From Verrucomicrobiota bacterium (GTDB lineage Bacteria > Verrucomicrobiota > Verrucomicrobiia > Verrucomicrobiales > Akkermansiaceae): 64,000 nt of DNA. The notes beneath the pieces were generated by a model. That model saw only the letters and a program-made list of their open reading frames with translations, did no database searches and was not told the DNA's origin. The stretch lies in contig JAURPJ010000074.1 in NCBI GenBank assembly GCA_030835305.1, positions 1-64,000 on the forward strand, given 5' to 3'. Shown piece after piece: positions 35,493 through 56,427 of this stretch. How positions within the stretch are numbered: position 1 is the stretch's first letter; each line of letters opens with the position of its first letter. A program made the translations under genes and the position numbers.

Positions 35493-36098
35493 CTATCGGG
35501 AGCAGCCAAGAAGCAAATTCGTATTGTGACGAAGAGCAGCCGCCAGATCTGCACTCTGGTAACCTGTACCAAAGACCCGGCTGAAAACATCTTTTTTCCC
35601 TTCCTGATCACGCTTGGAAAGCTTCGCAAACTCGGCGTCGAGAGAAGTAAAAAGATCATCCACCATCTTGGTGGTGGGAGTATGCCATGGTTCCAGATCG
35701 AGCTCGGGAGCCTCGCCCACAGCAGATGGAGCCTTCAAAGCGGGGCGTGAAATCAGCCCGGAATTCAGACGCATGTCACCGGACATCACCCGGATCTGGG
35801 CCGACTGCAGAGCCCCGTCAGCGCTGTAATTAAGCTCAATGTATGAGGTCAGCTTCTTGCCGAAGCGTGGCTTGTGCTCGACGCGGGTCGAAACGAAAAT
35901 CCCACCCCCGGCATTTGGCGTCACCGTGGGTTTGTGGGTAAGGTAGGAATGGTTATCGATGCTGTAAGATGCGGTCCGATTCTTACGCCAGCCGTTCAGG
36001 GCCGCGCCCAGGGAATCAATATCAACGATAACTGCCGAAGCAGGCACGAAAAGAGAAAGGCCGGTCAGGGCCGTCATGAGGAAGTTCTTTGTGGTCAT
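35493..36098 (-). CDS. small secreted protein, last gene of the TonB operon
   Basis: 201 aa from ATG 36098, giving the signal peptide TTKNFLMTALTGLSLFVPAS. The mature part looks like beta structure (SIDNHSYLTHKPTVTPNAGG; FVSTRVEHKPRFGKKLTSYI; AQIRVMSGDMRLNSG), then a helical C-terminus (KMVDDLFTSLDAEFAKLSKR). I do not recognise the family. It starts 13 bp after the porin stop and precedes the terminator, so it belongs with the porin and TonB genes. An accessory or ligand-binding role at the outer membrane is only inference. Confidence 0.7.
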   Translation of the reverse strand: MTTKNFLMTALTGLSLFVPASAVIVDIDSLGAALNGWRKNRTASYSIDNHSYLTHKPTVTPNAGGGIFVSTRVEHKPRFGKKLTSYIELNYSADGALQSAQIRVMSGDMRLNSGLISRPALKAPSAVGEAPELDLEPWHTPTTKMVDDLFTSLDAEFAKLSKRDQEGKKDVFSRVFGTGYQSADLAAALRHNTNLLLGCSR

Positions 36099-36111
36099 GG
36101 TATTTGTGGTT

Positions 36112-37356
36112 TTAAAAGGCATATCTGGCAAAAGTGTTCCATCCCCAGGAGCTCAAGGTCTCGTTATCCTCCCCCACTTCGGAGAGCGAACGATATTCCA
36201 CTCCGGTGCCGAGGATGAGATTGTCATCATCAAAGTGAATGTTCACCCCGGCGTATAATATCGAGCTCAACTGCGCAGCCGTCGTAATCTCGGGGAAGGC
36301 AGTCGGGAAAATGGCGTCCGATCCAGTGTCCGGAATTCCCCAGTAGGAATAAATCCCACCCGGGTCGCGGGAACGGGCATATTGGTAGCGGGAAACGAAG
36401 CTCACCGCATCCTGGAGGAGCCAGTAACGGCCCGCAGCGGTAACCCCGTAAGCAGTATTGCCGGAACCACGGGCAGCGAGAAACTCGGTGTAAAAATCAA
36501 AGCGCCCCGAGCTATACTCGGCGCCCGCGGAAAGCAGATGACGATAGCCCTGCGCGATACTCTCACTCGTGGAACCATCCATATTGTATATATAATCGAG
36601 GTGCCACCGTCGATAGTTGGCCTCAGGAGCGCCTTCGACTCCTCCTCGATTCCGAGAACTTGCAATGCTCGCCAGAATGTAGCCGTCACCGTCAAGCGAG
36701 GGAAGGCTGCGATCAACTTCGGAACCAAACCATCCAAGCTTCCAGTCCAGCTTTGATCCTCTGCCTTCAAACATAAATCCAAGGCTGCTTGCGGGAGCCA
36801 TCTGTGCAGCCAGTGGCGAGAGAGTCGGGAACCATCGAACTGCCGCATCGCGACTGTATTCGGTCGAAAACGGGGGAGGAAACTTACCGCCGGTAAGGCG
36901 CATTTCCTCGCCAATGGGAACGCTGGCACGCAATGTCTCCCAACCTTCATACTGGCCCGAGCTCGACAAAAGGGCGTCTGCCAGGATTTCGATTCCGTAA
37001 TAGGTCTGGAGAGCCATTCCAACCCGGGCCCGACTCAGTTTGGTTCCCTTTCCAAGAGAACGATCGTAGACCTGATACTCGAATAAACCGCGGGGCGCAA
37101 AAGTCGTTCGCGACCCCGCTTCGATTGGAAACTTGGGAGCCAACTCGGTCCGCCATCGCGTGGGAAACTGAACGTTCACCGGCTCCAGTTTCTCCGCCTT
37201 CACCTCAATGGCCTTGCGGGAGGCTGGAAGACGCGCCGCCTGCTCAAAAACGTTTTGCGCAGAATCCGCTTCCTGCTCGAGGAGTTTTAGCGCTTCATTC
37301 GCGCCTGTCGGTAAAACCAGGGCGGTGGAGAACATCAAGAATCCAGCCTTCATCAC
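36112..37356 (-). CDS. outer-membrane porin, possibly porin O/P (phosphate-selective) type
   Basis: 414 aa. A signal peptide (AGFLMFSTALVLPTGA) is followed by a short helical segment (about 20-50, LLEQEADSAQNVFEQAARL), then alternating beta strands through to a terminal Phe (WGWNTFARYAF), the outer-membrane insertion signature. Strand pairs such as RARVGMALQTYYGIEILADA, GEEMRLTGGKFPPPFSTEYS and FYTEFLAARGSGNTAYGVTA fit the porin O/P family. Its ATG overlaps the TPR gene's stop by ATGA, which ties it to the TonB operon. Selectivity for phosphate is a family-level possibility, not shown by sequence. Confidence 0.75.
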   Translation of the reverse strand: MMKAGFLMFSTALVLPTGANEALKLLEQEADSAQNVFEQAARLPASRKAIEVKAEKLEPVNVQFPTRWRTELAPKFPIEAGSRTTFAPRGLFEYQVYDRSLGKGTKLSRARVGMALQTYYGIEILADALLSSSGQYEGWETLRASVPIGEEMRLTGGKFPPPFSTEYSRDAAVRWFPTLSPLAAQMAPASSLGFMFEGRGSKLDWKLGWFGSEVDRSLPSLDGDGYILASIASSRNRGGVEGAPEANYRRWHLDYIYNMDGSTSESIAQGYRHLLSAGAEYSSGRFDFYTEFLAARGSGNTAYGVTAAGRYWLLQDAVSFVSRYQYARSRDPGGIYSYWGIPDTGSDAIFPTAFPEITTAAQLSSILYAGVNIHFDDDNLILGTGVEYRSLSEVGEDNETLSSWGWNTFARYAF

Positions 37357-38966
37357 TCCCCTTCCTTCTTTTCGTCATCTTGGGCGCCTGATTTCCCATC
37401 GCCCTCTTTTGCTTCCTTGATCTTGGCATCCTTGGCCTTTTTTTCCTCCCCGGCCTTCGCCTCTGCCTCCTCGGTTTTTTCAAGAGCCTCGCGCGTTTCA
37501 CGACGCTTCTGCTCGAGACGCTCTTCTCTCTCCCTCTGACGGGCGGCGGCGCGTTCCACCCGGCGCTTGTATTGCTCGATTGATTCCTTGCCCCCGGTTT
37601 TCAATCGAATCGCTTCCTCGATCAATGGCAGGGCTTCGGTGTATTTCTGAGCCTTCACGAGCATACTCGCGAGCCGGAGGTTTGCCTTATATCCCACCTT
37701 GGGATCAGTGTCGCCGGTGGCTTGCTTGAAGGCCGTGCGGGCTTCCACCTTGAGCTCCTTGATCTTCTTGTCATCGGTCGCTTCCTCGGCGAGTTTGGTG
37801 TACATCTCCCCAAGCTTGAGGCGACTTTCGCCACTGGCAGGACTCACCAACAGCGCTTGTTTCAAAAACTCGGCGGCATTTTCATAACGCTTTTCCGCAT
37901 CAGCAATATCCGAATCAACTACAAAAGCCGCCACCTTCTGGTCTTTGCTGAGAGTTTCCCCCGCTTTGGCCCGCAATGTCACCATCAATCTGGCAGCCTC
38001 CTGGGGGGCCTCAAGCTGCAAAAGATAGCCGGCCGATTTCAGGGTGCGATCAACATCAATGGTCTCACTGAGACGAATCGCGCTGAGGTAAGCTCCCAGA
38101 GCCAAAAGCGGTTCCTCCTGATTGGAATAAATGTCACCGAGCGTGTTCAAGGAAGCCTCGTCGGCAATCCCCTTCAGACGAAGAACCTCGTAGTTTTCGG
38201 CAGCCCGCATGACATCACCCATCTGAATATAGCAGTTGGCTTGCTGCTTCCACATCACGGGATCGGCAGGATTATCATCGATCAATGACTGCATCATGCT
38301 GGCGGCCTGAGGCCAGTCCTCTTTGACCAAAAGAGCCTGCACCAATCCAACCTGCCAATCCTTCTCGTCTGGGTTGGTCAGGTAGGCCTGGCGAAAGGCA
38401 GCCTCGGCAGCGAGTGCCTTTTCTTCGGCTAACATTGCGTGCCCCAGAAGGCCATAGCTGAGGTGGTCGGCATCACCCAGCTCCATCGCTTTAATCAAGT
38501 GTGGCTTGGCCTGCGTCATGCGATCGGATCGGGCATAAACAAGAGCAAGGTTTTTGTGCGCGCGACGATACTCGGGAAAGCGCTTGATAGCCGTCTTGTA
38601 GGCGGACTCGGCCTCAGCCGCGCGTCCATTTTGATAGTAGAGGTTACCCAGAGTAAAAACGAGAGCGGCCGACACATCCTTGGCCTCAACCTCGGGATCG
38701 ATCGGATTCTTTCTCTCTTTGATAAAAGCGAGCAAACGGGTCTCGGCCTCCTTGTAACGCTGGGCCGAAAGAATTTCGGACAGCTCGGCGATGAGAGCTG
38801 CTTCCTCCTGATCCACCTTGGGCTCGACCTTGGGAAGGAAGCCATAGCTCCCGACGAATTTCTCCCTAAACTCGGGGGTCCGGAACCATTCGGGGGAAAC
38901 CTTCACCGCTTGGGCAAAAAGCGATGGCAAGGCGAGAGATAAGAGACAAAGGGAGCGAAGGATCAT
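37353..38966 (-). CDS. exported tetratricopeptide-repeat protein of the TonB operon
   Basis: 537 aa. A signal peptide (LRSLCLLSLALPSLFAQA) is followed by a run of about a dozen TPR-like helix pairs: LVFTLGNLYYQNGRAAEAES, AYKTAIKRFPEYRRAHKNLA, LVYARSDRMTQAKPHLIKAM and so on to about residue 460. The end is a strongly charged Glu/Lys/Arg coiled coil (RREREERLEQKRRETREALE). TPR proteins close TtpC-type TonB operons in marine gammaproteobacteria, in the same position. It should sit in the periplasm and organise the TonB complex or couple it to receptors. It lies 63 bp after tonB and overlaps the porin start. Confidence 0.86.
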   Translation of the reverse strand: MILRSLCLLSLALPSLFAQAVKVSPEWFRTPEFREKFVGSYGFLPKVEPKVDQEEAALIAELSEILSAQRYKEAETRLLAFIKERKNPIDPEVEAKDVSAALVFTLGNLYYQNGRAAEAESAYKTAIKRFPEYRRAHKNLALVYARSDRMTQAKPHLIKAMELGDADHLSYGLLGHAMLAEEKALAAEAAFRQAYLTNPDEKDWQVGLVQALLVKEDWPQAASMMQSLIDDNPADPVMWKQQANCYIQMGDVMRAAENYEVLRLKGIADEASLNTLGDIYSNQEEPLLALGAYLSAIRLSETIDVDRTLKSAGYLLQLEAPQEAARLMVTLRAKAGETLSKDQKVAAFVVDSDIADAEKRYENAAEFLKQALLVSPASGESRLKLGEMYTKLAEEATDDKKIKELKVEARTAFKQATGDTDPKVGYKANLRLASMLVKAQKYTEALPLIEEAIRLKTGGKESIEQYKRRVERAAARQREREERLEQKRRETREALEKTEEAEAKAGEEKKAKDAKIKEAKEGDGKSGAQDDEKKEGE

Positions 38967-39029
38967 TGACGGCGATGGAGAGTGTGAAATGTGGAATCGG
39001 TTGGGAGGGCTGGATTTGTGACGAAGACG

Positions 39030-39695
39030 TCACCCAACCCGAACTTCGAAGGGAATCTTAATGCGGGCCTTAGCCTTGCGTCCGTTACGGACCGCCGCCT
39101 TGAACTTGTATCGAAGAACCGCCTTGACGGCAGACTCATCAAGTGCCGGGATCCCCGAACCCTTGGAGATCTTGGCTTCCAGAAGCTTGCCATTCTCATC
39201 GATAAGACCAGAAACGATAAAGCGGACCGTTCCGCGCTTTTGAAGGGCCTTATTTGCCGCATTGGGCACGTTGAGTGGAGCCTTGGAACTGACCACCGGG
39301 TCAGAGTCGACTCCGGTGGATTCCATTCCCCCTCCGCCGCCAAGAGCCACCGCCGGGGTCACATTAAGGAGAACACGACCACCGGTTCCCAGCTGCAGGT
39401 CGGCCAGATCCATCGGTTCGACAACAGCTTCGTCTTGAGCTTCCGCGATCTCGGGTTCCTCAACCTCCTCCTCGATCTCCTCTTCAAGTTCGGGCTCAAT
39501 GTATTCTTCAGGTTGCTCGGGAGCGACCGTTGCGGTCAGCTCCGGCTCCTCGGGTCGCATTCCCTCCTCGAGCTTCTGCATGAGCGGGATGAAGTAGAAG
39601 ACCATGAAGGTCAGGATGGCGCCCCCTCCAAAAATGATGGCGGTGCTGAGAAAGCGATTTCTCCGGGGAGGGCGATCAACGTGACGGACGTTCAT
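39030..39695 (-). CDS. tonB: energy transducer TonB
   Basis: 221 aa. A short basic cytoplasmic start (NVRHVDRPPRRNRFLS) leads into one membrane helix (TAIIFGGGAILTFMVFYFIP). The periplasmic stretch, about 45-110, is Glu/Pro-rich (EEYIEPELEEEIEEEVEEPE) instead of the Pro/Lys type of E. coli. The C-terminal TonB domain occupies the last ~85 residues: KRGTVRFIVSGLIDENGKLL, ALDESAVKAVLRYKFKAAVR, KIPFEVRVG. It links ExbB/ExbD energy to outer-membrane receptors. The start overlaps the exbD stop by ATGA. Confidence 0.94.
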   Translation of the reverse strand: MNVRHVDRPPRRNRFLSTAIIFGGGAILTFMVFYFIPLMQKLEEGMRPEEPELTATVAPEQPEEYIEPELEEEIEEEVEEPEIAEAQDEAVVEPMDLADLQLGTGGRVLLNVTPAVALGGGGGMESTGVDSDPVVSSKAPLNVPNAANKALQKRGTVRFIVSGLIDENGKLLEAKISKGSGIPALDESAVKAVLRYKFKAAVRNGRKAKARIKIPFEVRVG

Positions 39696-40108
39696 GAGTC
39701 GGTAAGGGTGATTTTTGTGGGTTTGGCACCACCTTCGAGGCAGGCATTTTGAACCTCGTAAGTCACTCCATTACGTGACTGCGGATGGCTTTGAATAATA
39801 ATGGGGCTGCGGTCCTCACGCTGGAGTTGCGATTCGACGATCCCCGAAACCGCACTGAGAGGCACAACACGTCCATCATGGATAATCTGACTGTCCTTGC
39901 GTATCACCAAAACGAGCGTTTGATCATCATTTGCCTGGGCCGAATTTTCAGAGTCCTCCGGACGATTCACGACAAATCCGTCTTCTTCTACAAAGGTCGC
40001 GGTCACGATAAAGAAAATCAAAAGAATGAAGACGCAATCGATCATCGGCGACAAATCCGGTTCCGGATCGTTGTCGTCAATTTCAAACCTATCCTTTCCG
40101 AGTGGCAT
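39692..40108 (-). CDS. exbD: ExbD-family biopolymer transport protein (second copy)
   Basis: 138 aa. Short cytoplasmic start with paired acidic residues (EIDDNDPEPDLSPMIDCVFI) carrying the conserved membrane Asp, then the helix LLIFFIVTATF and a periplasmic domain ending in KITLTDS. It is very like the adjacent upstream copy in the N-terminal half but differs in the periplasmic half. It begins 1 bp after the first exbD stop and overlaps tonB. Two different ExbD in one operon suggests a hetero-oligomer. Confidence 0.92.
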   Translation of the reverse strand: MPLGKDRFEIDDNDPEPDLSPMIDCVFILLIFFIVTATFVEEDGFVVNRPEDSENSAQANDDQTLVLVIRKDSQIIHDGRVVPLSAVSGIVESQLQREDRSPIIIQSHPQSRNGVTYEVQNACLEGGAKPTKITLTDS

Positions 40109-40109
40109 C

Positions 40110-40526
40110 TTACTGGGTGGCTGCGGTTAGTTTGTTCTTCTTCACTCCGGCAAGAAGACACTGCTTCTCGACATCGGAAACGATTCCCCGGAAAGCATTG
40201 GTATCGGCCTGAATAATGACCGGAAGTTCCTCGTCCTCCAAAAGCATGGGGCGAACGACATTCTGAACTCCTCCCACCCCAACTTCCTGTCCGCCGTAGA
40301 AAACCTTGTTCTCGGCAGTCACCGCGAGGAGGATGGAATTCTTTTCCAGGCGCGCAACCTTGCTGGCTCTTGCCCGGGTCACCTCAACACCCGGAGGCTT
40401 CTGGAAAACGGTGGTCACGATGAAGAAAATCAAAAGAATGAAAACACAATCGATCATCGGAGAGAGATCGGGTTTGGGTTCATCATCCTCGCTGAAAAAG
40501 GAACCGCTGCGGCGAACTGAACTCAT
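40110..40526 (-). CDS. exbD: ExbD-family biopolymer transport protein (first copy)
   Basis: 138 aa. The start contains FFSEDDEPKPDLSPMIDCVF with the proton-relay Asp, followed by the membrane helix ILLIFFIVTTVF. The periplasmic domain includes NSILLAVTAENKVFYGGQEV and VIIQADTNAFRGIVSDVEKQ. It couples the proton gradient to TonB with the ExbB proteins. Overlaps the short ExbB stop by ATGA. Confidence 0.93.
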   Translation of the reverse strand: MSSVRRSGSFFSEDDEPKPDLSPMIDCVFILLIFFIVTTVFQKPPGVEVTRARASKVARLEKNSILLAVTAENKVFYGGQEVGVGGVQNVVRPMLLEDEELPVIIQADTNAFRGIVSDVEKQCLLAGVKKNKLTAATQ

Positions 40527-41128
40527 ACGTTCCGGAATTTTGTAGTGACAATGATGCTTTGAAGCTGCGCCAAAGTGGTGTCAATTTTGTTGCGCCGCTC
40601 CCGCACCATGAGGGACATGAACATTCCCGGGAGGGCGATGACGAGCCCGGTAAGAGTGGTAAAAAGCGCCTTTTTCATCCCCGAGGCAATCAGCCCCATA
40701 CTCTGCTTCCCGCCCCCGGCGGCGAGACCATCAAACATATCCAGCATTCCTCCCACCGTTCCGAGGAGTCCGGTCATGGGAGCAGCGGCCACAAGGGTGG
40801 TGATGATAATGAGGCGGCGATCAATCGAGGCGATGAGGATCTCGCGCATCTCGTCAAAGCGACGCTGCACACGCTTGATCGAGAGCTTTTTTCCGTGGAT
40901 CGCATAGCGAATAATTTCGCCAACCCGCCCTTCCGCAGACTCGGGATCATTAATCCAATCCGCCCACTGGCTTTTTTGCTTGTGGTTTAAATTGCCTCGA
41001 AAGACGAAATACAAGGAAGCCGTTGCGGTGGTGTAAAGCAGGAAGGCCACAATGGCGAGAGCCGCCATGACGGTGCCTCCATCAGTGAAGATGTCGACAA
41101 CTTCCTGGAGATTACCGAGAATGAACAT
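40523..41128 (-). CDS. exbB: MotA/TolQ/ExbB proton-channel protein, short form
   Basis: 201 aa. Three membrane helices: about 15-40 (DGGTVMAALAIVAFLLYTTA), about 105-130 (LIIITTLVAAAPMTGLLGTV) and about 145-170 (KKALFTTLTGLVIALPGMFM). The family signature GLLGTVGGMLDMF and the Pro-containing third helix are in place. The stop-start junction with the long form is TAATG, so the two are translationally coupled. Forms the proton channel with ExbD. Confidence 0.94.
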   Translation of the reverse strand: MFILGNLQEVVDIFTDGGTVMAALAIVAFLLYTTATASLYFVFRGNLNHKQKSQWADWINDPESAEGRVGEIIRYAIHGKKLSIKRVQRRFDEMREILIASIDRRLIIITTLVAAAPMTGLLGTVGGMLDMFDGLAAGGGKQSMGLIASGMKKALFTTLTGLVIALPGMFMSLMVRERRNKIDTTLAQLQSIIVTTKFRNV

Positions 41129-42561
41129 TAGGCTGGTGAGAGTTCTGCTTCGTCAAGATCCTCCGGTTCGTCATCTGACGAGTCCTTGCCGGGTGATTCA
41201 TCAAGCTCGGTGGTGCCGTTCAGAATGGAGAGAGCGACCCCTTCAGCCTGACCGAATTTGGACTTCGCAAGACTCTTAAGCATTCCGTGAATAATGATCA
41301 CCGGGATGGCCACGATGAGACCCATCGCGGTGGTAATGAGAGCCTCACTGATGCCCGCTGAGAAGGACTTGGAATCACCCGAGTCACCAACCGACATCAT
41401 CGCAAAGGTTTTCATAATTCCGAGAACCGTTCCCAGCAGTCCCATCATGGGGGCTGCCGCCGCGACAAGCGCGAGGAATGGCAGGAAGCGCTCAAGTCTT
41501 GGTTGAATCATGCCCAGCTTTTCAAGAAGGGCATCTTCAAGAATCCGCCGCTTGTCGTAAAAGTAGGTGACTCCGGACTCCACCATCTGACCACCAAGAC
41601 CTTTGAACGCCTTGGCTTTTGCGGTGGCGGCGTCGGTATCGTGCAACAAAAGATCGTCAAGAATGAGGTTGAGCTTCTTACGATTCGGAATCGGGAAGCG
41701 GTTGATCTCAATCACCTTCCACACCGCAATCAAAAGGGCAAAAAGACCAATCGCAAGGATTCCATACCCGACCAGACCACCACCCTCAACGTAGTCAGAG
41801 ATCGATTTCTTAACGCGCGCCACTTGAATTGCCTTCCCCATGGAAGCATCGACCGGAACGATTGCGGATCCTGATTTCACCAGATCGGCAATGGGCTCGC
41901 CGCCTTCCTTCACCAGGGCCAGGTTTGGATAATCGACTCCCTCGGCGGTCGCGATCGCAGTGAAGCCGAATACCTCGTTGTCGTCGGAGGCAAAGTATCC
42001 CAGCGGACCAGCAACTGCAAACTTCCCTTCTTTAATCACAGCACCTTCAGTGACCGCACTTCCCTCAAAGCGATCGCCACCCGAAATATTTTGGAGTCGC
42101 TCGGCTGACAGATGAAGTAGGAACAAACGATTCCTAATCTCCATCACGAGATCGTCAGTTGAACCATCAGCCATCTTCTGACGCTTGGACAGTTCGACAC
42201 CAAAGGATTGTTTTTCGGCAGGATGGATTCGATCCTTCAAACCGCTCCCGAAGCTCCGCAAGGTGGAGAGGGTGTATTCAAACTCCCCTTTCCGGCGTGC
42301 CAGCTCGTTATTCAACTGCCGCTGCTCTCCGGCGACGTTGTCTTCGGCTTTCAGAAGATCGGCAAGCGTCTTGGTCTGCGCCAGAACCTGGTCATCAATA
42401 GTCTCAACCTCCTTGATCAGACCTCCCGCTTCTTTGGTGATTTCCGCTTGCAGCGAAAGAAGTTGCTGCTGGGCAAGACGAAGATCCTGCTCCGCCTTCT
42501 CCTGAGCCGTCTGGGCAAACACGCCCCCGGTCAAAGCAAGTGAAAGTAAAATACGTTTCAT
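41128..42561 (-). CDS. MotA/TolQ/ExbB-family protein, long TtpC-type form
   Basis: 477 aa from ATG 42561; upstream codons add no plausible signal. It has a cleavable signal peptide (KRILLSLALTGGVFA), a periplasmic coiled coil (about 18-105, KAEQDLRLAQQQLLSLQAEI), and a middle beta-like domain (FAVAGPLGYFASDDNEVFGF). Three ExbB membrane helices follow in the last ~220 residues, with LVGYGILAIGLFALLIAVWK and AAAAPMMGLLGTVLGIMKTF. This layout matches TtpC of the TonB2-type systems of Vibrio and relatives. TtpC is needed in addition to the ordinary ExbB there. It starts 10 bp after the DUF3450 stop. Confidence 0.9.
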   Translation of the reverse strand: MKRILLSLALTGGVFAQTAQEKAEQDLRLAQQQLLSLQAEITKEAGGLIKEVETIDDQVLAQTKTLADLLKAEDNVAGEQRQLNNELARRKGEFEYTLSTLRSFGSGLKDRIHPAEKQSFGVELSKRQKMADGSTDDLVMEIRNRLFLLHLSAERLQNISGGDRFEGSAVTEGAVIKEGKFAVAGPLGYFASDDNEVFGFTAIATAEGVDYPNLALVKEGGEPIADLVKSGSAIVPVDASMGKAIQVARVKKSISDYVEGGGLVGYGILAIGLFALLIAVWKVIEINRFPIPNRKKLNLILDDLLLHDTDAATAKAKAFKGLGGQMVESGVTYFYDKRRILEDALLEKLGMIQPRLERFLPFLALVAAAAPMMGLLGTVLGIMKTFAMMSVGDSGDSKSFSAGISEALITTAMGLIVAIPVIIIHGMLKSLAKSKFGQAEGVALSILNGTTELDESPGKDSSDDEPEDLDEAELSPA

Positions 42562-42571
42562 GTAAAAAAAT

Positions 42572-43375
42572 CTACTTTGCGATTTCGAGAGGAAGTTCCA
42601 CCAACCGCACTTCACCGCTGGCATTTCCCACATCAATCAACTCTCGAATTTTCGCCACCGTTTCGGGGTCCGAAATCTCCTTCTTCTCCCAACCTTCGGG
42701 ACTTGGGTCGAGCCGGTAGGCCACCTTTCCCTGTTCGTCGGAAGCGAAGCCCATCGCGAGACCAAAATAGATTCCGTCCAGGATGACTTGATCTCCACCC
42801 ACATCAGCGGTGAGCCCTCCGCCCTTGAACGGTGTCACCACCTGATTAAACTTCTCCGCCTCAAGCAGGATCGTAATCATCGAAGTCAGCCGGGCATTCA
42901 GCGCGATCTTGTCCTTATCGGTGCGTTTCACAAACCCGAGATGATCAGCAATGGCCTTCTCAATCTTACCCTCCTTGGTCAATTGTTTTGGAAGAAGAGG
43001 AATCACGGCAGAAACCTTGGCATCGAGATCATTGAGCCCGTCGCGCAGTGCTTCGCGGGCGGCATCGTAGCTCTTTTTCTCCGCAAGCTTGTCCGCGGAC
43101 TGCACATCGAGCTTCTTCTGACGATCAAAAGCCGCCAAAATCTCGCTTTCAAGCTGGGCGGTTTCGGCCTCCAACGACGCCTTGGAGTCCAGCAGGATCT
43201 CTTTCTTTTCCTTCCACTCTTTTTGTTTTTCTTGGGTCTCCTTCATGACGGAGATCCATTTCTGGACGGTAGCCCGGAGTTTTTTATTGGCTTCGACTCC
43301 GCCATCCTGAGCATGCAGGGGCAAAAACGAGACGATGACGACAGGTAAAAGAGCGAACTTCATTTGTGAGCTCAT
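42572..43375 (-). CDS. DUF3450 family periplasmic coiled-coil protein
   Basis: 267 aa (263 if the internal ATG at 43363 is used). A signal peptide (KFALLPVVIVSFLPLHA) is followed by a long coiled coil (about 35-115, KEKKEILLDSKASLEAETAQ; AAREALRDGLNDLDAKVSAV) and a C-terminal globular part (ADVGGDQVILDGIYFGLAMG; AYRLDPSPEGWEKKEISDPE). DUF3450 genes occur just before the TtpC-ExbB-ExbD-TonB-TPR set in marine gammaproteobacteria. The order here is identical, which makes the call firm although its biochemical role is unknown. A hairpin terminator and a paired half-site element lie upstream, so an operon promoter starts here. Confidence 0.9.
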   Translation of the reverse strand: MSSQMKFALLPVVIVSFLPLHAQDGGVEANKKLRATVQKWISVMKETQEKQKEWKEKKEILLDSKASLEAETAQLESEILAAFDRQKKLDVQSADKLAEKKSYDAAREALRDGLNDLDAKVSAVIPLLPKQLTKEGKIEKAIADHLGFVKRTDKDKIALNARLTSMITILLEAEKFNQVVTPFKGGGLTADVGGDQVILDGIYFGLAMGFASDEQGKVAYRLDPSPEGWEKKEISDPETVAKIRELIDVGNASGEVRLVELPLEIAK

Positions 43376-43414
43376 TTACTAACCCAGAGCTTTCAAGGAT
43401 GGAGAAATTCCTCA

Positions 43415-43431
43415 GGTGACACGTTTGTCAC
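43415..43431 (-). promoter_or_regulatory. paired NGTNAC operator-like site before DUF3450
   Basis: On the minus strand it reads GTGACAAACGTGTCACC, that is (A)GTGAC and TGTCAC half-sites 11 bp apart. The site is 40-56 bp before the DUF3450 start and after the upstream terminator. It also forms a palindrome GTGACA-N4-TGTCAC. It matches the site at 45339-45355 at 13 of 17 positions. An OmpR/PhoB-type regulator is plausible. Confidence 0.5.
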
Positions 43432-43462
43432 TTTCGAAAACAATTCGATGGAGATTGGGACA

Positions 43463-43501
43463 AAAAAGAGCCGCTTCACCTCCCGGCGAAACGGCTCTTT
43501 T
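43463..43501 (-). terminator. hairpin terminator after the secreted partner gene
   Basis: AAAAGAGCCG and CGGCTCTTTT enclose an 18-bp loop. It lies 29 bp after the stop at 43530 in the leftward direction and separates that gene from the DUF3450 operon. Confidence 0.85.
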
Positions 43502-43529
43502 ATTGGATTACCTGGGAAAGGTATTGCGT

Positions 43530-45248
43530 TTAATTCTTCTCCACGCGGAAGAAGAGCTTGCTCGCGCCGCCCTGGGGCTCGAAGGAAATCGAGGCATTGA
43601 CCGGGGCATCGGCAAGAGTGGCTCCGGCAACATCGGCGAAAGCACCTTCCATGGTTGCCGACTGGGTCACCTTATAGCTCGCTCCGGCCTCGGCGACGAA
43701 GTTAATGGTGTAAGTCGTCCCATCAAACGCAGTCGAGATAATCTCGAGTGCGTCGCCTGTAACGAATTCGTCTACGAAGATCCCATTGGCATCAGCATAG
43801 GTCCAACCTGCGGCCCAGTTCTCGCTACCAAAGGCTCCTCGATAGTTCGTTGAGGATGGTGCTCCGGCAGTCAGTCCGCTGGTCCAAGCAAGCGATCCCT
43901 TCCTCGGACGTGGATCAATCTGAGTCACTTCGCCCACCTCATTACGGGTGACCGCACTGAACTGGACATCAACATCAGTCTGATTGCCAGATTGCGCCAG
44001 AAGCGCAGCTTCAGCTTCAGCATTCGCGTTCCCGCTATTGCTGGTTTCAGCATCCGCTGGGGTTCCAAACAGATTATTAGTGAAGTTCAGATTAACACCC
44101 ACTTGAGCAATCGTCGATGCGTCGTCAATTCGCACAATATCATCACCACTACTCGTGAAGATTCCATTATGGAACTGTCCCGCAAAGTTATCCTTCAACC
44201 GGAAGGTGTCGGATGATCCGCTCACATCTCCAGCTCCACTCGCTCCCACATAGGTCGCGTTGAAGATCTTCGTGCTACTCAGTGGCTCGCCAGTCTTGAC
44301 TCCCGATCCGGTGCGGTTCCCCCCATCAGCCTCGGTGCCGTAATCACTGTTGTTTGACTGAACTGCAAACCAGAACTGGTGCGTTCCCTGGTGACCTTCG
44401 TCGATATCGAAGGACTCGTCCTGACAGTAGAGTGCGAAGAGGTGGCTGGTATTCACCGTGCCTCCGAACCATTCGAATCCGTCGTCAGTATTTGCAACAA
44501 CCTCCACGTGGTCGATTGTTGTGCCAGATCCCACTCCGCCCATTGTCAGGCCGTTAATCTCTTCATCAACCGCAAACTCAAATCCTCCAAAGCGGATCGA
44601 GACGTAGCGTAAGATTCCTGAGTTATCATCGGGGACGTTACCTCCATAGAGGATGTCGTCACCAGCAGCATTCTGGGCAAAACCTTCAATCGCATTCGAG
44701 TTCAGGTTGTTCGTCGGAGTGTTGTAGTAGTTAATGGGGGCATTTCCAAGAATGATCACACCTCCCCACTGACCTCCGTCGCTTCCGTCATCATCGCCAC
44801 CGATTGGATCGGGCTTAACTGTATTGATACCTCCTCCGTCGATGTCGACGTTGTAGAGATACTCCGCTTCCGCAGCACTCGTGAAGACAATCGGCGCGTC
44901 GGCAGTTCCCTCCGCATTGATCGATCCAGTCTGAGCAATCACAAGCGATCCCACATCAAGACCGTCAGTGCCTGTAAAGGATCCGGTAGCCGCGATAATC
45001 GTGCCTGGCTCAATCGTCAATGTCGGGCGATCCGCTCCTCCACTGAAGTTCCCAACAAATACCGCTTCATCAAGATAGTAGATGGTATCGATGACACCAT
45101 CATCGTTTGTGTCCGAGTCCCAAACTGTATCGGTATCGATAGTGTTCGGGGGTTGTATAATTGTCGGCATTGCCGATAAAACATTCGCTAGCCCGAATCC
45201 TAAGATCGCGGAAAGCGTGAACGTTTGGCGTTTTGTCTGATATTTCAT
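43530..45248 (-). CDS. secreted beta-helix-like protein paired with the TonB-dependent receptor
   Basis: 572 aa from ATG 45248 (MKYQTKRQTFTLSAILGFGL, a signal peptide). After a DTVWDSDTNDDGVIDTIYYL segment the protein follows a repeated plan of short strands and Gly/Asp turns: LTIEPGTIIAATGSFTGTDG, LVIAQTGSINAEGTADAPIV, GGQWGGVIILGNAPINYYNT, ISIRFGG-like YVSIRFGGFEFAVDEEING and HVEVVANTDDGFEWFGGTVN. This is a right-handed parallel beta-helix pattern. A C-terminal beta module ends KLFFRVEKN. Proteins of this type stand next to TonB receptors in several marine bacteria. There is no PEP-CTERM anchor or lipobox. A substrate-capture role is inference. Confidence 0.78.
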   Translation of the reverse strand: MKYQTKRQTFTLSAILGFGLANVLSAMPTIIQPPNTIDTDTVWDSDTNDDGVIDTIYYLDEAVFVGNFSGGADRPTLTIEPGTIIAATGSFTGTDGLDVGSLVIAQTGSINAEGTADAPIVFTSAAEAEYLYNVDIDGGGINTVKPDPIGGDDDGSDGGQWGGVIILGNAPINYYNTPTNNLNSNAIEGFAQNAAGDDILYGGNVPDDNSGILRYVSIRFGGFEFAVDEEINGLTMGGVGSGTTIDHVEVVANTDDGFEWFGGTVNTSHLFALYCQDESFDIDEGHQGTHQFWFAVQSNNSDYGTEADGGNRTGSGVKTGEPLSSTKIFNATYVGASGAGDVSGSSDTFRLKDNFAGQFHNGIFTSSGDDIVRIDDASTIAQVGVNLNFTNNLFGTPADAETSNSGNANAEAEAALLAQSGNQTDVDVQFSAVTRNEVGEVTQIDPRPRKGSLAWTSGLTAGAPSSTNYRGAFGSENWAAGWTYADANGIFVDEFVTGDALEIISTAFDGTTYTINFVAEAGASYKVTQSATMEGAFADVAGATLADAPVNASISFEPQGGASKLFFRVEKN

Positions 45249-45338
45249 AAAAACCTGGATTTCAAAAAAGACTCGGCACGGAGTTGCAAGTCGTGATGTT
45301 TTACTAATGCCACGAGACACGAAAGAAACCGGAACTCC

Positions 45339-45355
45339 GTGACAACTTTGTTACG
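45339..45355 (-). promoter_or_regulatory. paired NGTNAC operator-like site before the secreted partner gene
   Basis: Minus strand CGTAACAAAGTTGTCAC: CGTAAC and TGTCAC with 11-bp spacing, 91-107 bp before the ATG at 45248 and just past the receptor gene's stop. It shares 13 of 17 bases with the site at 43415-43431. Confidence 0.5.
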
Positions 45356-45367
45356 TGTCGAAATTGT

Positions 45368-48300
45368 TTAGAACTTAGCCTCGAACGTGAGACCAAACTC
45401 ACGTCCCGGAGAGTATGCCTCGGCAGGGGCAATCGAGGAGGCCAGCCCCTCGTAGGAAGCCTCCACGTCTGAATCTAGGATATTTCGTACTTGGAACTTC
45501 AACTTGTAATCGGCCCACTTTGTTTCCCACCGCTTGCTGACATTCCAATCGAGAGACTGAAACGGTTTGCGAACTTCGTTGGGCAGAGCCGATCCGGGTT
45601 GCCCCACAAATCCGAGGCTAGCCACGGTGAGATACTCTCCGGTATAATTGTAAATCAAGTTGGTCGAGAGACCCATGTCGTCATTCTCCCATGACAGAAT
45701 CAAATTTCCCAAAAGATCAGGCTGGCCTTCCAATCGATCAATCCGACCGAGAAAATCCTGTCGGTTAATGGTCACGATGCCCGGTTGCGCCGTGGCTTCG
45801 ATAAAACTCAAATTACCGGTCACCGAAAAGCCAGCTCCAAGATCATAGCTTCCTTCCAATTCAACTCCGGACACTTCGGTTTCACCGAGGTTCACGAAAG
45901 TTCGGTCAGCCACTCCTGAAGGATCATTAATGGTAAAAATTGGATCCGTGATGATCTTATGGAAGGCGTTGATCCCAGCGTAATTCTTGTCTCGCTTCCA
46001 GGTCAAACTAAAGTCGAAGTTCTGAGCTTGAGTCTCCCGAAGGTCGCGATTACCCACGAAAACTCGTTGATTGGTCAAATCGAGAATTCTCGCCGGAATG
46101 AATTCATAGAAGGTCGGGCGTACCACTGTTTGGGAATAGTTCAGGGTCGCTTTAACCTCACGATCCACACCAAAGAAGCGACCAAGCTCAAACGATGGAT
46201 AGATATCGTCTGAGACAGTGGTTTTTGAAGTCCCCCGTCGCCCTCCCGGAATGCTGAAAGCTCTGGTTTCTTCCTCGAATCGAAATCCTCCCAAAAGAAC
46301 CCAACTGTCCCACTCCGCGTCGAGACCAACATAAAGGGAATCAATTAGGTTGGAACCAAAGTACGTGGGGGTTACCCCAAGAGCCGAAGATCCCGGGACG
46401 AAACCTGCGGTTGATTGAATGGAATTCGAAGATCCGGTTTCCTGATCGTTTAAAAGTCTGTCGGTCGCCGCGATTCCGCGCTCAACCGTTGACAGTGATC
46501 CTCCACTCGCGATAATTGCAGCCTTGGTGTTACTCCGCCGGTCCCGGCGATACTGTCCGAATCCACCGGCAAGATTCAGCTTCCTTTTTTCAGTCGCCTC
46601 CATCAGAGGGAGCACCCCATCCAATTTAAATTGAGAAGACTCATCAACGGTATCAAACTGAATCAAGTTGGAACTGTTGGGGTTGGCTATGTTTGCAGGG
46701 TTGGGAATTGAGATTCCCGAAATTGGATCAACATCATTATTTAGCTCCCGGAGGAAATACCCCAACAATTCATAACTCCTCGGCGATGATTCATTGGTCT
46801 CACTGTGATAGGCATTCCAGTTTAAAATCGCCCCTTCCCTCCAATCATCGAAACGTAAGGCGCCTCCAAGCTGACCGAACTGGAGTTCGCGGTAAATCAA
46901 GTCATAGATTTGGCGATAGCTGTTTGCCTGAAATCCCTCGAGAACAACATCTCCGCGGGCGAGCGAATCCCCTGCATCAATGTCAAAATCGCTAAGCCTC
47001 GTCACTCCATTGTCTATCAAGGTATAGGTCGCGTTTCCGGAGCGGAAATTAAAGAAACTTCCATTCAGCTCCAGATTATCACCAATGTTCAGACTTCCGG
47101 AAAGTAGCATACTCAACTCCTCGGTGTCCGTGTAGGATTCCTGAGCAAAGTTACCCACCAGACCATCGAAGACGGTCAATCCGGCAAGCTGTCTCAGCGA
47201 GCTGGTGTCCGCAAATCGAGGATTCAGAGTGACTGATCCGAGACTTCCGCTCAATGGGATGGCATTCTGAAAACGAGACTGCTCAAATTGCTGGTAACGC
47301 TGCTGTGAAGTCTTCCCGATCGTTCCCAATAAGTTAAAACTGCTATTTCCACTCAGCTCCCAAGTCTTGGAAAACGAAGCGGTGATACTTCGATCAAGAT
47401 TGGGATCGCTTTCCCTCGGGCGGAACTTCACTGCATCGAAAAAAGCCTGTCGTTGACGCTGGGCTTCCGCTCCAGAGGCATTCGTTCGCAGCGTGGGTAA
47501 CGGAGCAGGATTTGAAGACTTCAGATCAGAACTGAGCTCAAGCCCAGGCACGGTGAGGAACCGCCCGTGACCATGGGTAATTTGATCAAAGGTCGTGCCC
47601 ACTTTAACTCTGAAAAAATCTTCTTCGCCCTTTGTCAAAGTTTGAAGCTGAACCAATCCGCCCACGAAGTCAGCAGGCAGACCGGGTGCCGCCGTTTTTT
47701 TGATGGCCACTCCTTCAAGCGCATTAGAGGGGAACAAGTCCAACTGCACCGCCTTCCGCGAAGTTTCGGGACTTGGCACGAGTCCACCATTCAAGGTGGT
47801 GTTGTTATAACGATCACCCAAACCACGAACGACAACAAACTTTCCACCCACCACGTTTGCTCCAGAAATTTTCCCAACGGCACCAGCCGCATCACCTGCT
47901 CCGGCTTTCGAAAGGAAGTCTTTTGAAAGTCCCCCACCCGCCAAACCCGGACCAGTATCCGGAATGATTCCCGGTCCGGATGCCTCCTCTTCGACCGGAT
48001 CGAGAACTACTTCCTCAGTATCCAGCAAATACTCGCCGTCAGCGAGCTCCACAGGTTTCAATTCCAGCGGAGTATTGATTTTTGTCTCACCTTCTCCCCG
48101 AATTTGCAGAACATCCACCTTGATCTGATACCCTTCTCTCAGGAATTCCGCCGTCACCCCGGCCGCAGGAAGCCCGGTGACCCGGTAGCTGCCGTCAGGA
48201 CCAGTCCTGGTCTGCTTGCCCCCCAACTCGGGAAAGGTGATAATGACATTCGCGATTCCCTTGCCATCCTTGTTCGAGACAACGCCCTCTAGCACTCCCG

Positions 48301-48673
48301 GCCCCTCACCCACACTCAGCGGTGGCAAAATTCCCGGCCCTACCGGCTCCGCCGCCGGGTTGGCAGGATCGTCAATGGGAGGGGCCTCATCACCAGTGGG
48401 TAATTCTTCCTCGCCTTTAGGGCCCTCCCTGGGCTCATCACCTTGATCTGTCGAATCTGTCACACTGTCCCTCTCCGGGTCGTCGACCATTTCGGGCTCG
48501 GTCGGAGGCAACAAGGGATCCAGCAAATCTGCCCGCCCCAACCAAGGTAGAATATCCGCCTCCTTCTCCTCTTTTTTAACAAGTTCAGCCGCAGGAGCCC
48601 GTCCATCTCCTGAAAGTGGCTGGATTAAAAGCAGGCCCGCAACCGGGACCATACGTCGATAAAATTGAGGCAT
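45368..48673 (-). CDS. TonB-dependent receptor with N-terminal carboxypeptidase-regulatory-like domain
   Basis: 1101 aa. After the N-terminus (RRMVPVAGLLLIQPLSGDG) comes an unusual acidic, Pro-rich stretch (about 35-125). A CarboxypepD_reg-like beta domain follows (about 125-205; GVLEGVVSNKDGKGIANVII, DGSYRVTGLPAAGV). The plug (about 240-345) contains GGKFVVVRGLGDRYNNTTLN and LDLFPSNALEGVAIKKTAAP. The rest is a 22-strand-type barrel ending FGLTFEAKF with the terminal Phe. It imports a ligand too large or scarce for porins, driven by TonB. It heads a block with the secreted partner and a complete TonB/ExbBD set. The ligand is not readable from sequence. Confidence 0.93.
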   Translation of the reverse strand: MPQFYRRMVPVAGLLLIQPLSGDGRAPAAELVKKEEKEADILPWLGRADLLDPLLPPTEPEMVDDPERDSVTDSTDQGDEPREGPKGEEELPTGDEAPPIDDPANPAAEPVGPGILPPLSVGEGPGVLEGVVSNKDGKGIANVIITFPELGGKQTRTGPDGSYRVTGLPAAGVTAEFLREGYQIKVDVLQIRGEGETKINTPLELKPVELADGEYLLDTEEVVLDPVEEEASGPGIIPDTGPGLAGGGLSKDFLSKAGAGDAAGAVGKISGANVVGGKFVVVRGLGDRYNNTTLNGGLVPSPETSRKAVQLDLFPSNALEGVAIKKTAAPGLPADFVGGLVQLQTLTKGEEDFFRVKVGTTFDQITHGHGRFLTVPGLELSSDLKSSNPAPLPTLRTNASGAEAQRQRQAFFDAVKFRPRESDPNLDRSITASFSKTWELSGNSSFNLLGTIGKTSQQRYQQFEQSRFQNAIPLSGSLGSVTLNPRFADTSSLRQLAGLTVFDGLVGNFAQESYTDTEELSMLLSGSLNIGDNLELNGSFFNFRSGNATYTLIDNGVTRLSDFDIDAGDSLARGDVVLEGFQANSYRQIYDLIYRELQFGQLGGALRFDDWREGAILNWNAYHSETNESSPRSYELLGYFLRELNNDVDPISGISIPNPANIANPNSSNLIQFDTVDESSQFKLDGVLPLMEATEKRKLNLAGGFGQYRRDRRSNTKAAIIASGGSLSTVERGIAATDRLLNDQETGSSNSIQSTAGFVPGSSALGVTPTYFGSNLIDSLYVGLDAEWDSWVLLGGFRFEEETRAFSIPGGRRGTSKTTVSDDIYPSFELGRFFGVDREVKATLNYSQTVVRPTFYEFIPARILDLTNQRVFVGNRDLRETQAQNFDFSLTWKRDKNYAGINAFHKIITDPIFTINDPSGVADRTFVNLGETEVSGVELEGSYDLGAGFSVTGNLSFIEATAQPGIVTINRQDFLGRIDRLEGQPDLLGNLILSWENDDMGLSTNLIYNYTGEYLTVASLGFVGQPGSALPNEVRKPFQSLDWNVSKRWETKWADYKLKFQVRNILDSDVEASYEGLASSIAPAEAYSPGREFGLTFEAKF

Positions 48674-48727
48674 AAGAGTATGGCTCTCTAGCTAAACCTG
48701 CCCCATAACGAGGGAAAAGCACACCAC

Positions 48728-48744
48728 TGTCACGGAGTCGTCAC
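48728..48744 (-). promoter_or_regulatory. paired NGTNAC operator-like site before the TonB-dependent receptor
   Basis: Minus strand GTGACGACTCCGTGACA: GTGAC repeats 11 bp apart (TGTGAC-N5-CGTGAC), 55-71 bp before the receptor ATG. The intergenic region is shared with the divergent ferredoxin gene at 48808, so either gene could be the target. Confidence 0.45.
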
Positions 48745-48807
48745 ATTTCAGCTTGGTCTATTCATTTTTACCTCGTCCCGTGAAGCCATCGGGCTTTACT
48801 TCCAGCC

Positions 48808-49158
48808 ATGCCCGACGTCCTGACTGCCACCGGCAAGACCCTTAATCTTGATAATTACAAAAAACACATTTTCCTTTGCGCGACCTCCGAAAAAGCAAAG
48901 TGCTGCGATAACATCGAGGGGGCCAAATCATGGCAATTTCTCAAAACACGTCTCGCCGAACTAAAACTCAACGGTCCGAAAGCTCTCATACATCGCTCAA
49001 AAGCCGACTGCCTCAGGATCTGCACCCTAGGCCCAATCGCAGTCGTTTACCCGGAGGCAGTTTGGTATCACTCCTGTACTCCGGAAAACCTTGAGCGTAT
49101 CATTCAGGAACACCTCATCGGAGGCCAACCGGTCGAAGATCTCCGCGTCTCGCCTTGA
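48808..49158 (+). CDS. thioredoxin-like [2Fe-2S] ferredoxin
   Basis: 116 aa. Four cluster cysteines in the thioredoxin-fold pattern: Cys24 and Cys32/33 in [16 protein letters not shown], then Cys68 and Cys72 in [24 protein letters not shown] follows with an extra Cys. Domain-alone proteins of this size act as electron carriers or as folding/cluster partners; their redox partner is unknown. It precedes holA by 30 bp, so the two may be co-transcribed. Confidence 0.9.
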
Positions 49159-49188
49159 ACCTCCCGCTCCCTCTGCCTACTCTCTGCC

Positions 49189-50253
49189 ATGCCTGTCCAC
49201 GTTATCACCGGAACTGATGAAGGCCGCGTCTCAGAAGAGGCTGCCGCTCTTTTTGTGGAGCTGAAGGCGCCGGGCAGCGACGATTTTTCAAATGAAATCA
49301 TCGAGGGTGTTGCGGACAATGCGGAAGACGCCTTCCAGAAATGCTCGCAAGCCATAGAAGCTCTCCAAACCTTGGGCCTCTTTGCAGCCAATAAAGTCGT
49401 CTGGCTGAAAGGTGCGAACTTCTTTGGCACCGACCGCACCAGCGAAGCCGAACGTGCGGTGTCTGGCGTTGAAAATCTTCTTGAGGTCCTCCAGAACAAC
49501 CTGCCTGACGAGGTGAATTTCCTTCTGAGTGCCACTGGGATAAATGGAGTGCGGCGCTTTGGGAAATGGGCGAAAAAGAATACGAGCTACCAGTCCTTCG
49601 ATAAGATCGACGTCTCCAAGGAAGGCTGGGAAGAACAAGTCGCTCGCATCGTCAAGAGAGTCGCCGGCGAGAAGGGACTCAGCATTCAAGGTGAGGCTCT
49701 TGAGCTCTTTGTCCAAAGAGCCGGTGCTGAGACCCGGCAAATCACAAACGAAATCGACAAGATCGACCTTTACCTCGGTGACAGCCGCCGGGAAGTCACG
49801 GTCAACGATGTTACCCTGATGGTTTCAGTGAGTCACAAGGGAGTCATTTGGGAAATCTCCCGGGCCGTCGAGAAACGAAATGCCAAGCGAGCGATCGAAC
49901 TCATCGATTCGCTTATCGCAAAAAACGAAAACGCCGTAGGGCTGATCAAGGCCTCGATCATACCAACGGTTCGGAATCTCTTTTTTGCCAAACTCGTCTC
50001 AGCCTATGGCTCGGCCAACCGGGCTCCTGCCGGTATTCAAGCCGTTCTTCCAAAGAAGAAGGACGGCACCGTAAATACCTGGGGACTTAAAATGGCTTCA
50101 GCAGGGGCAAAAAATTTCACCCTTCCCCAGCTACAACAAGGCATGAACGACTGCCTCGATGCCGATAAAGCCCTCGTGACCTCGGGCCAGGATCCAAGAA
50201 TGGTGCTGCACAAACTCTTAATTCGCCTCTGCGACGGTAAACGCGCCGCTTGA
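49189..50253 (+). CDS. holA: DNA polymerase III delta subunit
   Basis: Clamp-loader subunit that opens the beta clamp. 354 aa, normal length. N-terminal nucleotide-binding-fold strand VHVITGTDEGRVSEEAAALF; VVWLKGANFFG; the linker ALELFVQRAGAETRQITNEI and DKIDLYLGD; and the C-terminal helical collar (VSHKGVIWEISRAVEKRNAK; AIELIDSLIAKNENAVGLIK). The Walker A motif is degenerate, as usual for delta. The ATG at 49189 follows the ferredoxin gene; a strong terminator comes after the stop. Confidence 0.92.
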   Translation: MPVHVITGTDEGRVSEEAAALFVELKAPGSDDFSNEIIEGVADNAEDAFQKCSQAIEALQTLGLFAANKVVWLKGANFFGTDRTSEAERAVSGVENLLEVLQNNLPDEVNFLLSATGINGVRRFGKWAKKNTSYQSFDKIDVSKEGWEEQVARIVKRVAGEKGLSIQGEALELFVQRAGAETRQITNEIDKIDLYLGDSRREVTVNDVTLMVSVSHKGVIWEISRAVEKRNAKRAIELIDSLIAKNENAVGLIKASIIPTVRNLFFAKLVSAYGSANRAPAGIQAVLPKKKDGTVNTWGLKMASAGAKNFTLPQLQQGMNDCLDADKALVTSGQDPRMVLHKLLIRLCDGKRAA

Positions 50254-50277
50254 GCCCCCTGGGTCCATGGACAAAAA

Positions 50278-50317
50278 AAGAGATTCGAGAGTCACTCGAA
50301 TCTCTTACGATTTTTTT
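50278..50317. terminator. strong bidirectional terminator after holA
   Basis: AAGAGATTCGAG-AGTCA-CTCGAATCTCTT followed by ACGATTTTTTT. A perfect 12-bp stem between two convergent genes. Confidence 0.93.
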
Positions 50318-50332
50318 GAATCTTAATCGTTT

Positions 50333-50956: not shown

Positions 50957-51023
50957 TTGTGTGTGTTTGGTTAGGACCAATTTCTAGTGGATTGCTGTGA
51001 GTTAATATGACGCTTGCCTGAGC

Positions 51024-56312: not shown

Positions 56313-56427
56313 GGGAAATCGAGTTAAAGAGCCTTTGATGAGTTTCCACCACCGGCACATTGATTAGAAGTAATTGACTTGTTGTTAGTGTTGTTGGAAA
56401 TAGCAGAAATTGCCACCACGGTCTCTC

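Follow-up and report, generated by a model that had tools for sequence, protein, structure and literature searches.

What does a bacterium take up with a TonB-dependent receptor, a secreted partner protein, a TonB energiser and a porin that are all encoded side by side on one strand? This question is raised by an eleven-gene block in the 64,000-nucleotide stretch of DNA analysed here (the window; contig JAURPJ010000074.1 of assembly GCA_030835305.1, a verrucomicrobium of the Akkermansiaceae). We consider it likely that the block serves to acquire phosphate at the outer membrane, powered by TonB and under Pho regulation, with a porin as a parallel route. The original prediction, a dedicated importer with TonB-driven and porin routes for one ligand class, is supported in outline by co-inheritance, by linkage, by the Porin_O_P family of the porin and by the phosphate context. 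Overall, the block appears to be a variant of a system that is widespread but little studied. Pairs of this receptor and a beta-helix protein occur in about ten phyla, have neither a Pfam model nor a known mechanism, and include, on the partner side, relatives that rank with the proteins most strongly induced by phosphate starvation. To this pair the block adds a TonB motor that is inherited and box-marked together with it, a porin of the Porin_O_P type, and a common box that putatively belongs to the phosphate regulon. Open reading frame (ORF) inspection, with Pfam and NCBIfam support for the receptor and for the genes from DUF3450 to the TPR protein, confirmed the eleven genes, all on the minus strand between positions 35493 and 48673, in the order first described:

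45368-48673, minus strand: TonB-dependent receptor, 1101 aa, with a signal peptide, an acidic and proline-rich N-terminal extension, a carboxypeptidase-regulatory-like domain, a plug and a barrel
43530-45248, minus strand: secreted beta-helix partner (ElpS/CC0170-FI type), 572 aa from its likely ATG, from homologue searches and a structure model
42572-43375, minus strand: DUF3450 protein (TtpB-type), 267 aa, PF11932 at 1.3e-11 (over the cut-off), the only one in the genome
41128-42561, minus strand: TtpC-type long ExbB, 477 aa from its likely ATG, PF01618 at 4e-27 in the C-terminal part
40523-41128, minus strand: short ExbB, PF01618 at 5e-19
40110-40526, minus strand: ExbD 1, transmembrane Asp retained (SPMIDCVFILLIFF), PF02472 at 7e-21
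39692-40108, minus strand: ExbD 2, transmembrane Asp retained (SPMIDCVFILLIFF), PF02472 at 3e-19
39030-39695, minus strand: TonB, PF03544 (TonB_C) at 6e-12
37353-38966, minus strand: periplasmic TPR protein in the TtpD-type position, TPR families down to 8.5e-19, in the same place in all orthologous blocks
36112-37353, minus strand: porin of a divergent Porin_O_P family, 413 aa, from orthologue and profile-profile matches
35493-36098, minus strand: small secreted protein, 201 aa from its likely ATG, with a signal peptide, a beta-sheet and C-terminal helices

The gene overlaps claimed at the outset are real (TAATG at TtpC/ExbB, ATGA at ExbB/ExbD 1 and ExbD 2/TonB, TGATG at TPR/porin), and the starts of four genes probably need correction, to ATG 45248 for the partner, 42561 for TtpC, 37353 for the porin and 36098 for the small protein. 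Three true intergenic gaps of 119, 154 and 63 bp interrupt the block, each carrying regulatory signals.

Comparison of 24 genomes of the genus, the window's own being G000, showed that the block is nearly all-or-none: receptor, partner, DUF3450 and porin are all held by ten genomes, a divergent version by one (G011), and none of them by 13, several of which are at least 92% complete. The ten include G017, whose contig begins inside the partner and has no receptor, and G022, whose block is fragmented over contigs. The same gene order, sought in other Verrucomicrobiota genomes, was identical across the genus wherever contigs permit reading, and it is kept even where protein identity falls to ~50%, so that it reflects more than chance. 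The prediction would have failed had receptor, partner and porin been unlinked in relatives; we observed the opposite, co-inheritance with linkage wherever the contig allows. Related blocks exist in other verrucomicrobia, with receptor, partner, energiser and porin in two loci (L083 and L086) and with partner, energiser and porin in two more (L084 and L134), on contigs that break off within the partner; of these, L134 also carries the small protein and a pair of ExbD genes. Relatives in the order carry DUF3450-type energisers with one ExbD, away from any partner. In the literature that we searched, no paper describes this block in Verrucomicrobiota.

These patterns bear on whether the block is a functional unit at all, as opposed to a loose chromosomal grouping, with an unrelated porin and an energiser that works for every receptor in the cell. 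Plug-containing receptors number only six in the genome, which also has several further ExbB/TolQ genes; a single energiser could therefore supply more than one receptor. In addition, synonymous divergence (dS) between G000 and its relative G021 changes abruptly between partner and DUF3450. Such a grouping nevertheless seems improbable to us in view of the near all-or-none co-inheritance, the genus-wide linkage and the regulatory box shared by the block (see below), and because the association recurs in L083 and L086, partly in L084 and L134, and in Alteromonadales.

The neighbourhood of the block points to its ligand. In two sister species (G009 and G002) it continues on the same strand into a Porin_O_P-PstS-PstC-PstA-PstB-PhoU series, of which the PstC, PstA, PstB and PhoU of G009 pass NCBIfam equivalog cut-offs; in two others (G017 and G006) it continues into a Porin_O_P gene, after which the contig ends. 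Genome contigs searched with a profile of the partner yielded 80 loci in about ten phyla (Verrucomicrobiota, Bacteroidota, Latescibacterota, Kapaibacterium/Chlorobi/Ignavibacteria, Zixibacteria, Gemmatimonadales, Acidobacteria, Fibrobacterota, Delongbacteria and Alphaproteobacteria). A TonB receptor adjoins the partner in 59 of the 80, and pst/phoU genes or a phoB-phoR pair lie within reach in 21, against a chance expectation for pst/phoU of about 1% by our own estimate, which takes one PhoU/pst operon per 3-5 Mb. When neighbours were clustered without labels, the most recurrent was the receptor, followed by PhoB, PstS, PstC/A, PhoR, energiser parts, PstB and PhoU; a PHO4/PitA phosphate transporter, also one of the most recurrent families, occurs near the partner in five loci, and no iron genes figure among the recurrent neighbours. 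The Salegentibacter (L155) and Psychroflexus (L150) loci have the partner with a TonB-dependent transporter (TBDT) or with phoBR, as in Flavobacterium. Good but circumstantial evidence thus suggests phosphate as the ligand class.

The porin agrees with this context. Alone it has no Pfam match, whereas five of its nine orthologues match PF07396 (best 2.3e-5), and its profile aligns with that of the neighbouring Porin_O_P paralogues that match PF07396 (hhalign probability 99%, E 3.7e-18). It therefore appears to be a distant member of the Porin_O_P family of phosphate-selective porins, with that selectivity as a prediction and, unlike the known O/P porins, set in a TonB block.

A second line of evidence is a repeated box, GTGAC-N6-GT[CG]AC, present in three copies in the window, every one in a gap of the block:

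48729-48744, minus strand: box GTGACGACTCCGTGAC, upstream of the receptor
43416-43431, minus strand: box GTGACAAACGTGTCAC, upstream of DUF3450
39018-39033, minus strand: box GTGACGTCTTCGTCAC, at the TonB/TPR junction, before the TPR-porin unit
43376-43529, minus strand: gap between partner and DUF3450 with a terminator-like hairpin (folding energy -28.7 kcal/mol, z -6.7), then a T run

The 4.45-Mb genome has 19 distinct sites, so that about 0.06 would be expected in the 13-kb block. By ORF calls, eight of the 19 are intergenic and six of these precede phosphate-linked genes: the three in the block, two between a Na/Pi (inorganic phosphate) cotransporter and a Porin_O_P gene, and one before phoB-phoR. 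The box also lies upstream of phoB-phoR in G021, and each of the four species examined has it upstream of the gene for the Na/Pi cotransporter. In G009 and G002, half of the genomic boxes or nearly so (8 of 16 and 8 of 17) fall in one stretch (23 and 25 kb, respectively) that spans the TonB block and the pst operon, with sites at Porin_O_P, pstS and pstC. The receptor box is the same 16-mer, GTGACGACTCCGTGAC, in G000, G021, G020, G009, G002 and G022, with different flanks, even as the receptors of these six species fall to about half identical or less. The partner gap of the window genome has a degenerate copy. Pho boxes have an 11-bp period and a TGTCA core; the direct form of the box, found at the receptor, shows both, and the inverted form does not fit this scheme. 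With a putative operator shared with phoB and pst genes, the block may belong to a PhoB regulon, and the factor that reads the box is presumably PhoB. Induction of the partner by phosphate starvation is likewise a prediction; what is seen is that the block has boxes in common with phoBR and Na/Pi genes.

The same gaps argue against a single operon. The partner unit ends in a strong terminator-like 17-bp hairpin that runs out in T residues, and boxes precede the receptor, the energiser and the TPR-porin unit. A general sigma-70 and terminator scan gave little above shuffled sequences and did not pick up the terminator after the partner, probably on account of its limit on loop length; the hairpin was folded separately. 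Since the three gaps carry regulatory signals, the block probably consists of three or four transcription units that share a regulatory box, for which we propose receptor, partner, DUF3450 to TonB, and TPR-porin-small protein.

The energiser is of the DUF3450 type, with DUF3450 first, then the TtpC-ExbB-ExbD-TonB-TPR order, in which TtpC is a long ExbB with a periplasmic part at its N terminus, and an extra second ExbD (36% identical to the first), and is predicted to power TonB-dependent uptake. In a TtpC tree, the block energisers of the genus group with L134, L084 and L086 (support 95/92), the linked L087 and L122 group with unlinked systems, and the Alteromonadales stand apart on long branches. 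Because linked systems are scattered in this way, energisers were probably recruited to receptor-partner loci more than once, a reading that the long branches keep from being firm; a single origin of phosphate-linked energisers was considered and is disfavoured by the tree, again not firmly.

The receptor matches PF00593 (barrel, 2.3e-20), PF07715 (plug, 1.8e-4) and PF13620 (carboxypeptidase-regulatory, 8e-6), and scores 148 bits against TIGR01782, under the cut-off of 310. Its partner belongs to no Pfam family, whether searched alone or across the common part of a 50-member family (the window protein and 49 relatives). It has no SusD-type domain (PF07980/PF14322), the 50-member family matches no SusD model, and the pair does not belong to the SusCD/PusCD systems. 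A lipobox is absent from the window partner; 11 of the 50 family members have a type IX sorting tail, which fits a location at the cell surface. AlphaFold2 models the partner as a right-handed beta-helix (predicted local distance difference test, pLDDT, 82; predicted template modelling score, pTM, 0.82), whose best structural relatives are alginate epimerases and lyases, phage tailspikes, NosD and pectate lyases (VIA Z about 17-21). The family alignment holds an invariant acidic cluster, DDGxE.FGG (D255, D256 and E259, plus D277 and D281, in the 572-aa numbering), and nearly invariant D283, E306 and D308; in the modelled fold, this cluster could bind a metal-phosphate complex or mark an enzyme. 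Solved structures searched by sequence offered no credible match to the partner, the porin or the small protein. The partner domain occurs in one copy in G000 and G010, in two fused copies in G020 and G021, and in three in G009 and G002.

How new is this arrangement? The pBGP9 locus of Alteromonas macleodii has the order phoB-phoR-pstS-(2-oxoglutarate oxygenase)-partner-receptor-DUF3450-TtpC-ExbB-ExbD-TonB-TPR, that is, a partner-receptor pair with its own DUF3450-type energiser beside phosphate genes, and Pseudoalteromonas plasmids join energiser, partner and receptor in a different order. The linkage is therefore not new, nor special to the verrucomicrobium as had been supposed. The window receptor, partner, TtpC, ExbB and ExbD match their pBGP9 counterparts, TonB weakly, at 24-37% identity (TtpC, 25% over 439 aa, E 4e-23), and the TtpC tree has no sign of recent transfer. 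pBGP9 differs in having one ExbD, a three-domain partner and, in the stretch read, no porin or small protein. What the verrucomicrobial block adds is a porin of Porin_O_P type, a small protein and a second ExbD; its tight organisation, marked by boxes, is likewise particular to it.

Secreted partners paired with TonB receptors have also been studied experimentally. In Caulobacter, ElpS (CC0170) is a lipoprotein induced by Pi starvation, with the gene order CC0170-CC0171 (receptor)-type II secretion system (T2SS) (PMC2996285); the window partner instead lies beside an energiser and a porin, and the block has no gsp genes. The link between the two proteins runs through a Phenylobacterium homologue (L161, Caulobacteraceae; tblastn E 3e-45) with the order partner-receptor-gspC-gspD, and in Indioceanicola, Sphingomonas and Phenylobacterium the partner homologue is followed by a TonB receptor and by gspC/N-gspD, as in the Caulobacter order. 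With a Caulobacteraceae homologue and an adjacent receptor gene, the partner appears to belong with the ElpS/FI exoproteins, by way of the CC0170 position of L161 and not by the CC0170 sequence. The Flavobacterium proteins FI-FIII are reported ElpS homologues, strongly Pi-induced, with FI reaching 18.7% of the exoproteome under Pi depletion (PMC8115612). In the PUSIII/PUSIV loci of Flavobacterium johnsoniae, FI (Fjoh_3856) lies with the TBDT Fjoh_3857, and FII beside phoBR (PMC8115612). These loci share with the window a strongly Pi-induced partner-type exoprotein and a TonB transporter; they differ in that no dedicated TtpC energiser or Porin_O_P is reported and organic phosphorus is the proposed target.

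Several observations weigh against a Pho-regulated phosphate importer. The orientation of the boxes is mixed, direct at the receptor and some other sites and inverted at others; E. coli-type Pho-box scores upstream of the Alteromonas and Pseudoalteromonas loci are not over background; and in G000 itself the Porin_O_P-pst operon (contig C11, L056) is not adjacent to the block and has no box in the surrounding 20 kb. The block contains no phosphatase gene, and organic-phosphorus processing would therefore need to happen elsewhere. In Caulobacter, a switch to poor medium brought no detected change in intracellular phosphate, and deletion of cc0171 no reported uptake defect (PMC2996285). Finally, the TonB2 set of Vibrio vulnificus, TtpB2-TtpC2-ExbB2-ExbD2-TonB2-TtpD2, serves iron transport (PMC6957404).

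The Vibrio set has its energiser genes in the same order as the block, and raises the possibility that the block is a TonB2-type system for siderophore or heme iron. Besides this shared six-part energiser, required for iron transport in Vibrio (PMC6957404), there are weak matches of the receptor to siderophore and heme receptor profiles. These are far under curated cut-offs, however, and the window block has two ExbD proteins, a phosphate context and a linked partner and porin; its porin is a Porin_O_P, the recurrent neighbours of the partner are Pst, Pho and PitA with no iron genes, and the box marks phoBR and the Na/Pi cotransporter, all of which makes iron uptake highly improbable.

A surface sensor of phosphate starvation, which would signal and not transport, is suggested by the frequent adjacency of receptor-partner pairs to phoBR and was considered for CC0171 in the ElpS paper (PMC2996285). 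We regard it as very unlikely, since sensing needs no dedicated energiser or porin and the cc0171 deletion left ElpS induction intact (PMC2996285).

A more serious contender, though in our view still rather doubtful, is an importer or processor of organic phosphorus or of phosphorylated or acidic glycans, which in its regulation is a special case of the phosphate reading and differs from it in ligand and in what the partner does; the partner would be an enzyme or binder for such polymers, and the released product would enter through the receptor. The nearest folds to that of the partner are those of polysaccharide lyases, epimerases and polygalacturonases, its acidic cluster is invariant, organic phosphorus is the proposed target of FI/FII (PMC8115612), and ElpS overproduction goes with raised secreted alkaline phosphatase activity (PMC2996285). 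On the other side, beta-helices also have many non-enzymatic roles, and the partner's neighbours are inorganic phosphate transporters, not phosphatases or carbohydrate-active enzymes, which tilts the balance towards Pi or already released Pi. By analogy, the ElpS/FI work suggests organic phosphorus instead.

As a phosphate-acquisition system, the block could work as follows. Under Pi limitation, a PhoB-type regulator would act on the GTGAC-N6-GT[CG]AC boxes and switch on all units of the block (receptor, partner, energiser and TPR-porin-small protein) jointly with phoBR and the Na/Pi cotransporter; in sister species, Porin_O_P-pstSCAB-phoU would be induced along with the block. At the cell surface, phosphate or a ligand that carries it would be captured by the secreted beta-helix partner and handed over to the receptor. 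TonB would be driven by TtpC, ExbB and the two ExbD proteins, which would tap the proton motive force; DUF3450 (TtpB) and the TPR protein (TtpD) would serve as adaptors in the periplasm. The porin, of Porin_O_P type, would offer a parallel route by passive diffusion, and the Pst and Na/Pi systems would complete transport across the inner membrane. More tentatively, Pi itself or a partner-held phosphate complex may be actively pumped across the outer membrane by the dedicated energiser, a proposal to which we give clearly less than an even chance. If true, a TonB pathway specific for phosphate would be widespread and would use an extracellular capture protein from a family that has no name, whereas phosphate is usually held to cross the outer membrane only by diffusion through porins. 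The block makes such active, TonB-driven passage of phosphorus directly testable, in a family (Akkermansiaceae) in which one isolate is reported to degrade fucoidan in a phosphate-dependent way (PMC12872454).

The small secreted protein is conserved in sequence and belongs to no known family, in keeping with its initial description as unrecognised. AlphaFold2 gave a pLDDT of 77 (three sequences) with no clear fold match (Foldseek best E 0.16, VIA best Z 7.0); likenesses to OrfX-, capping-protein- and SPLUNC/BPI-like sheets in VIA were below a meaningful level, and this assignment was dropped.

Other observations concern the surroundings of these genes. Divergent from the receptor lies a 116-aa gene (48808-49158, plus strand) with a weak thioredoxin-like ferredoxin match; it holds the same place in G020, G021, G009 and G022 (71-92% identity), and the receptor's box sits between the two genes. 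In window positions 43376-56360, compared between G000 and G021 (L029), partner, receptor, PolIII delta, a PEP-CTERM protein and a cadherin-like protein have dS of 1.2-2.3, against ~0-0.26 in the energiser-to-small genes and further downstream, and this divergent segment has an edge in the partner-DUF3450 gap. Diversifying selection on receptor and partner was rejected: their ratio of nonsynonymous to synonymous divergence (dN/dS) is 0.06-0.08 at dS 1.5-2.3, so exchange of a divergent segment is the simpler reading. The number of fused domain copies in the partner shifts between one and three among close species (L028, L029, L031, L033, L073, L079, L140), and one Flavobacteriales locus has a 2475-aa version. 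Some 4.5 kb upstream of its Porin_O_P-pst operon, G000 has a second TonB-dependent receptor of 697 aa (L056:2741-4834, contig C11). A 118-aa ORF between the Na/Pi cotransporter and the Porin_O_P gene of G000 and G021 (L165:1653-2009; L212:2153-2509), downstream of the boxes and PstS-like by match in G021, might represent a remnant or else encode a short protein that binds phosphate. Finally, a ~350-aa outer-membrane beta-barrel-like family recurs near the partner in Bacteroidales-type loci (L118, L132, L136, L144, L149, L156).

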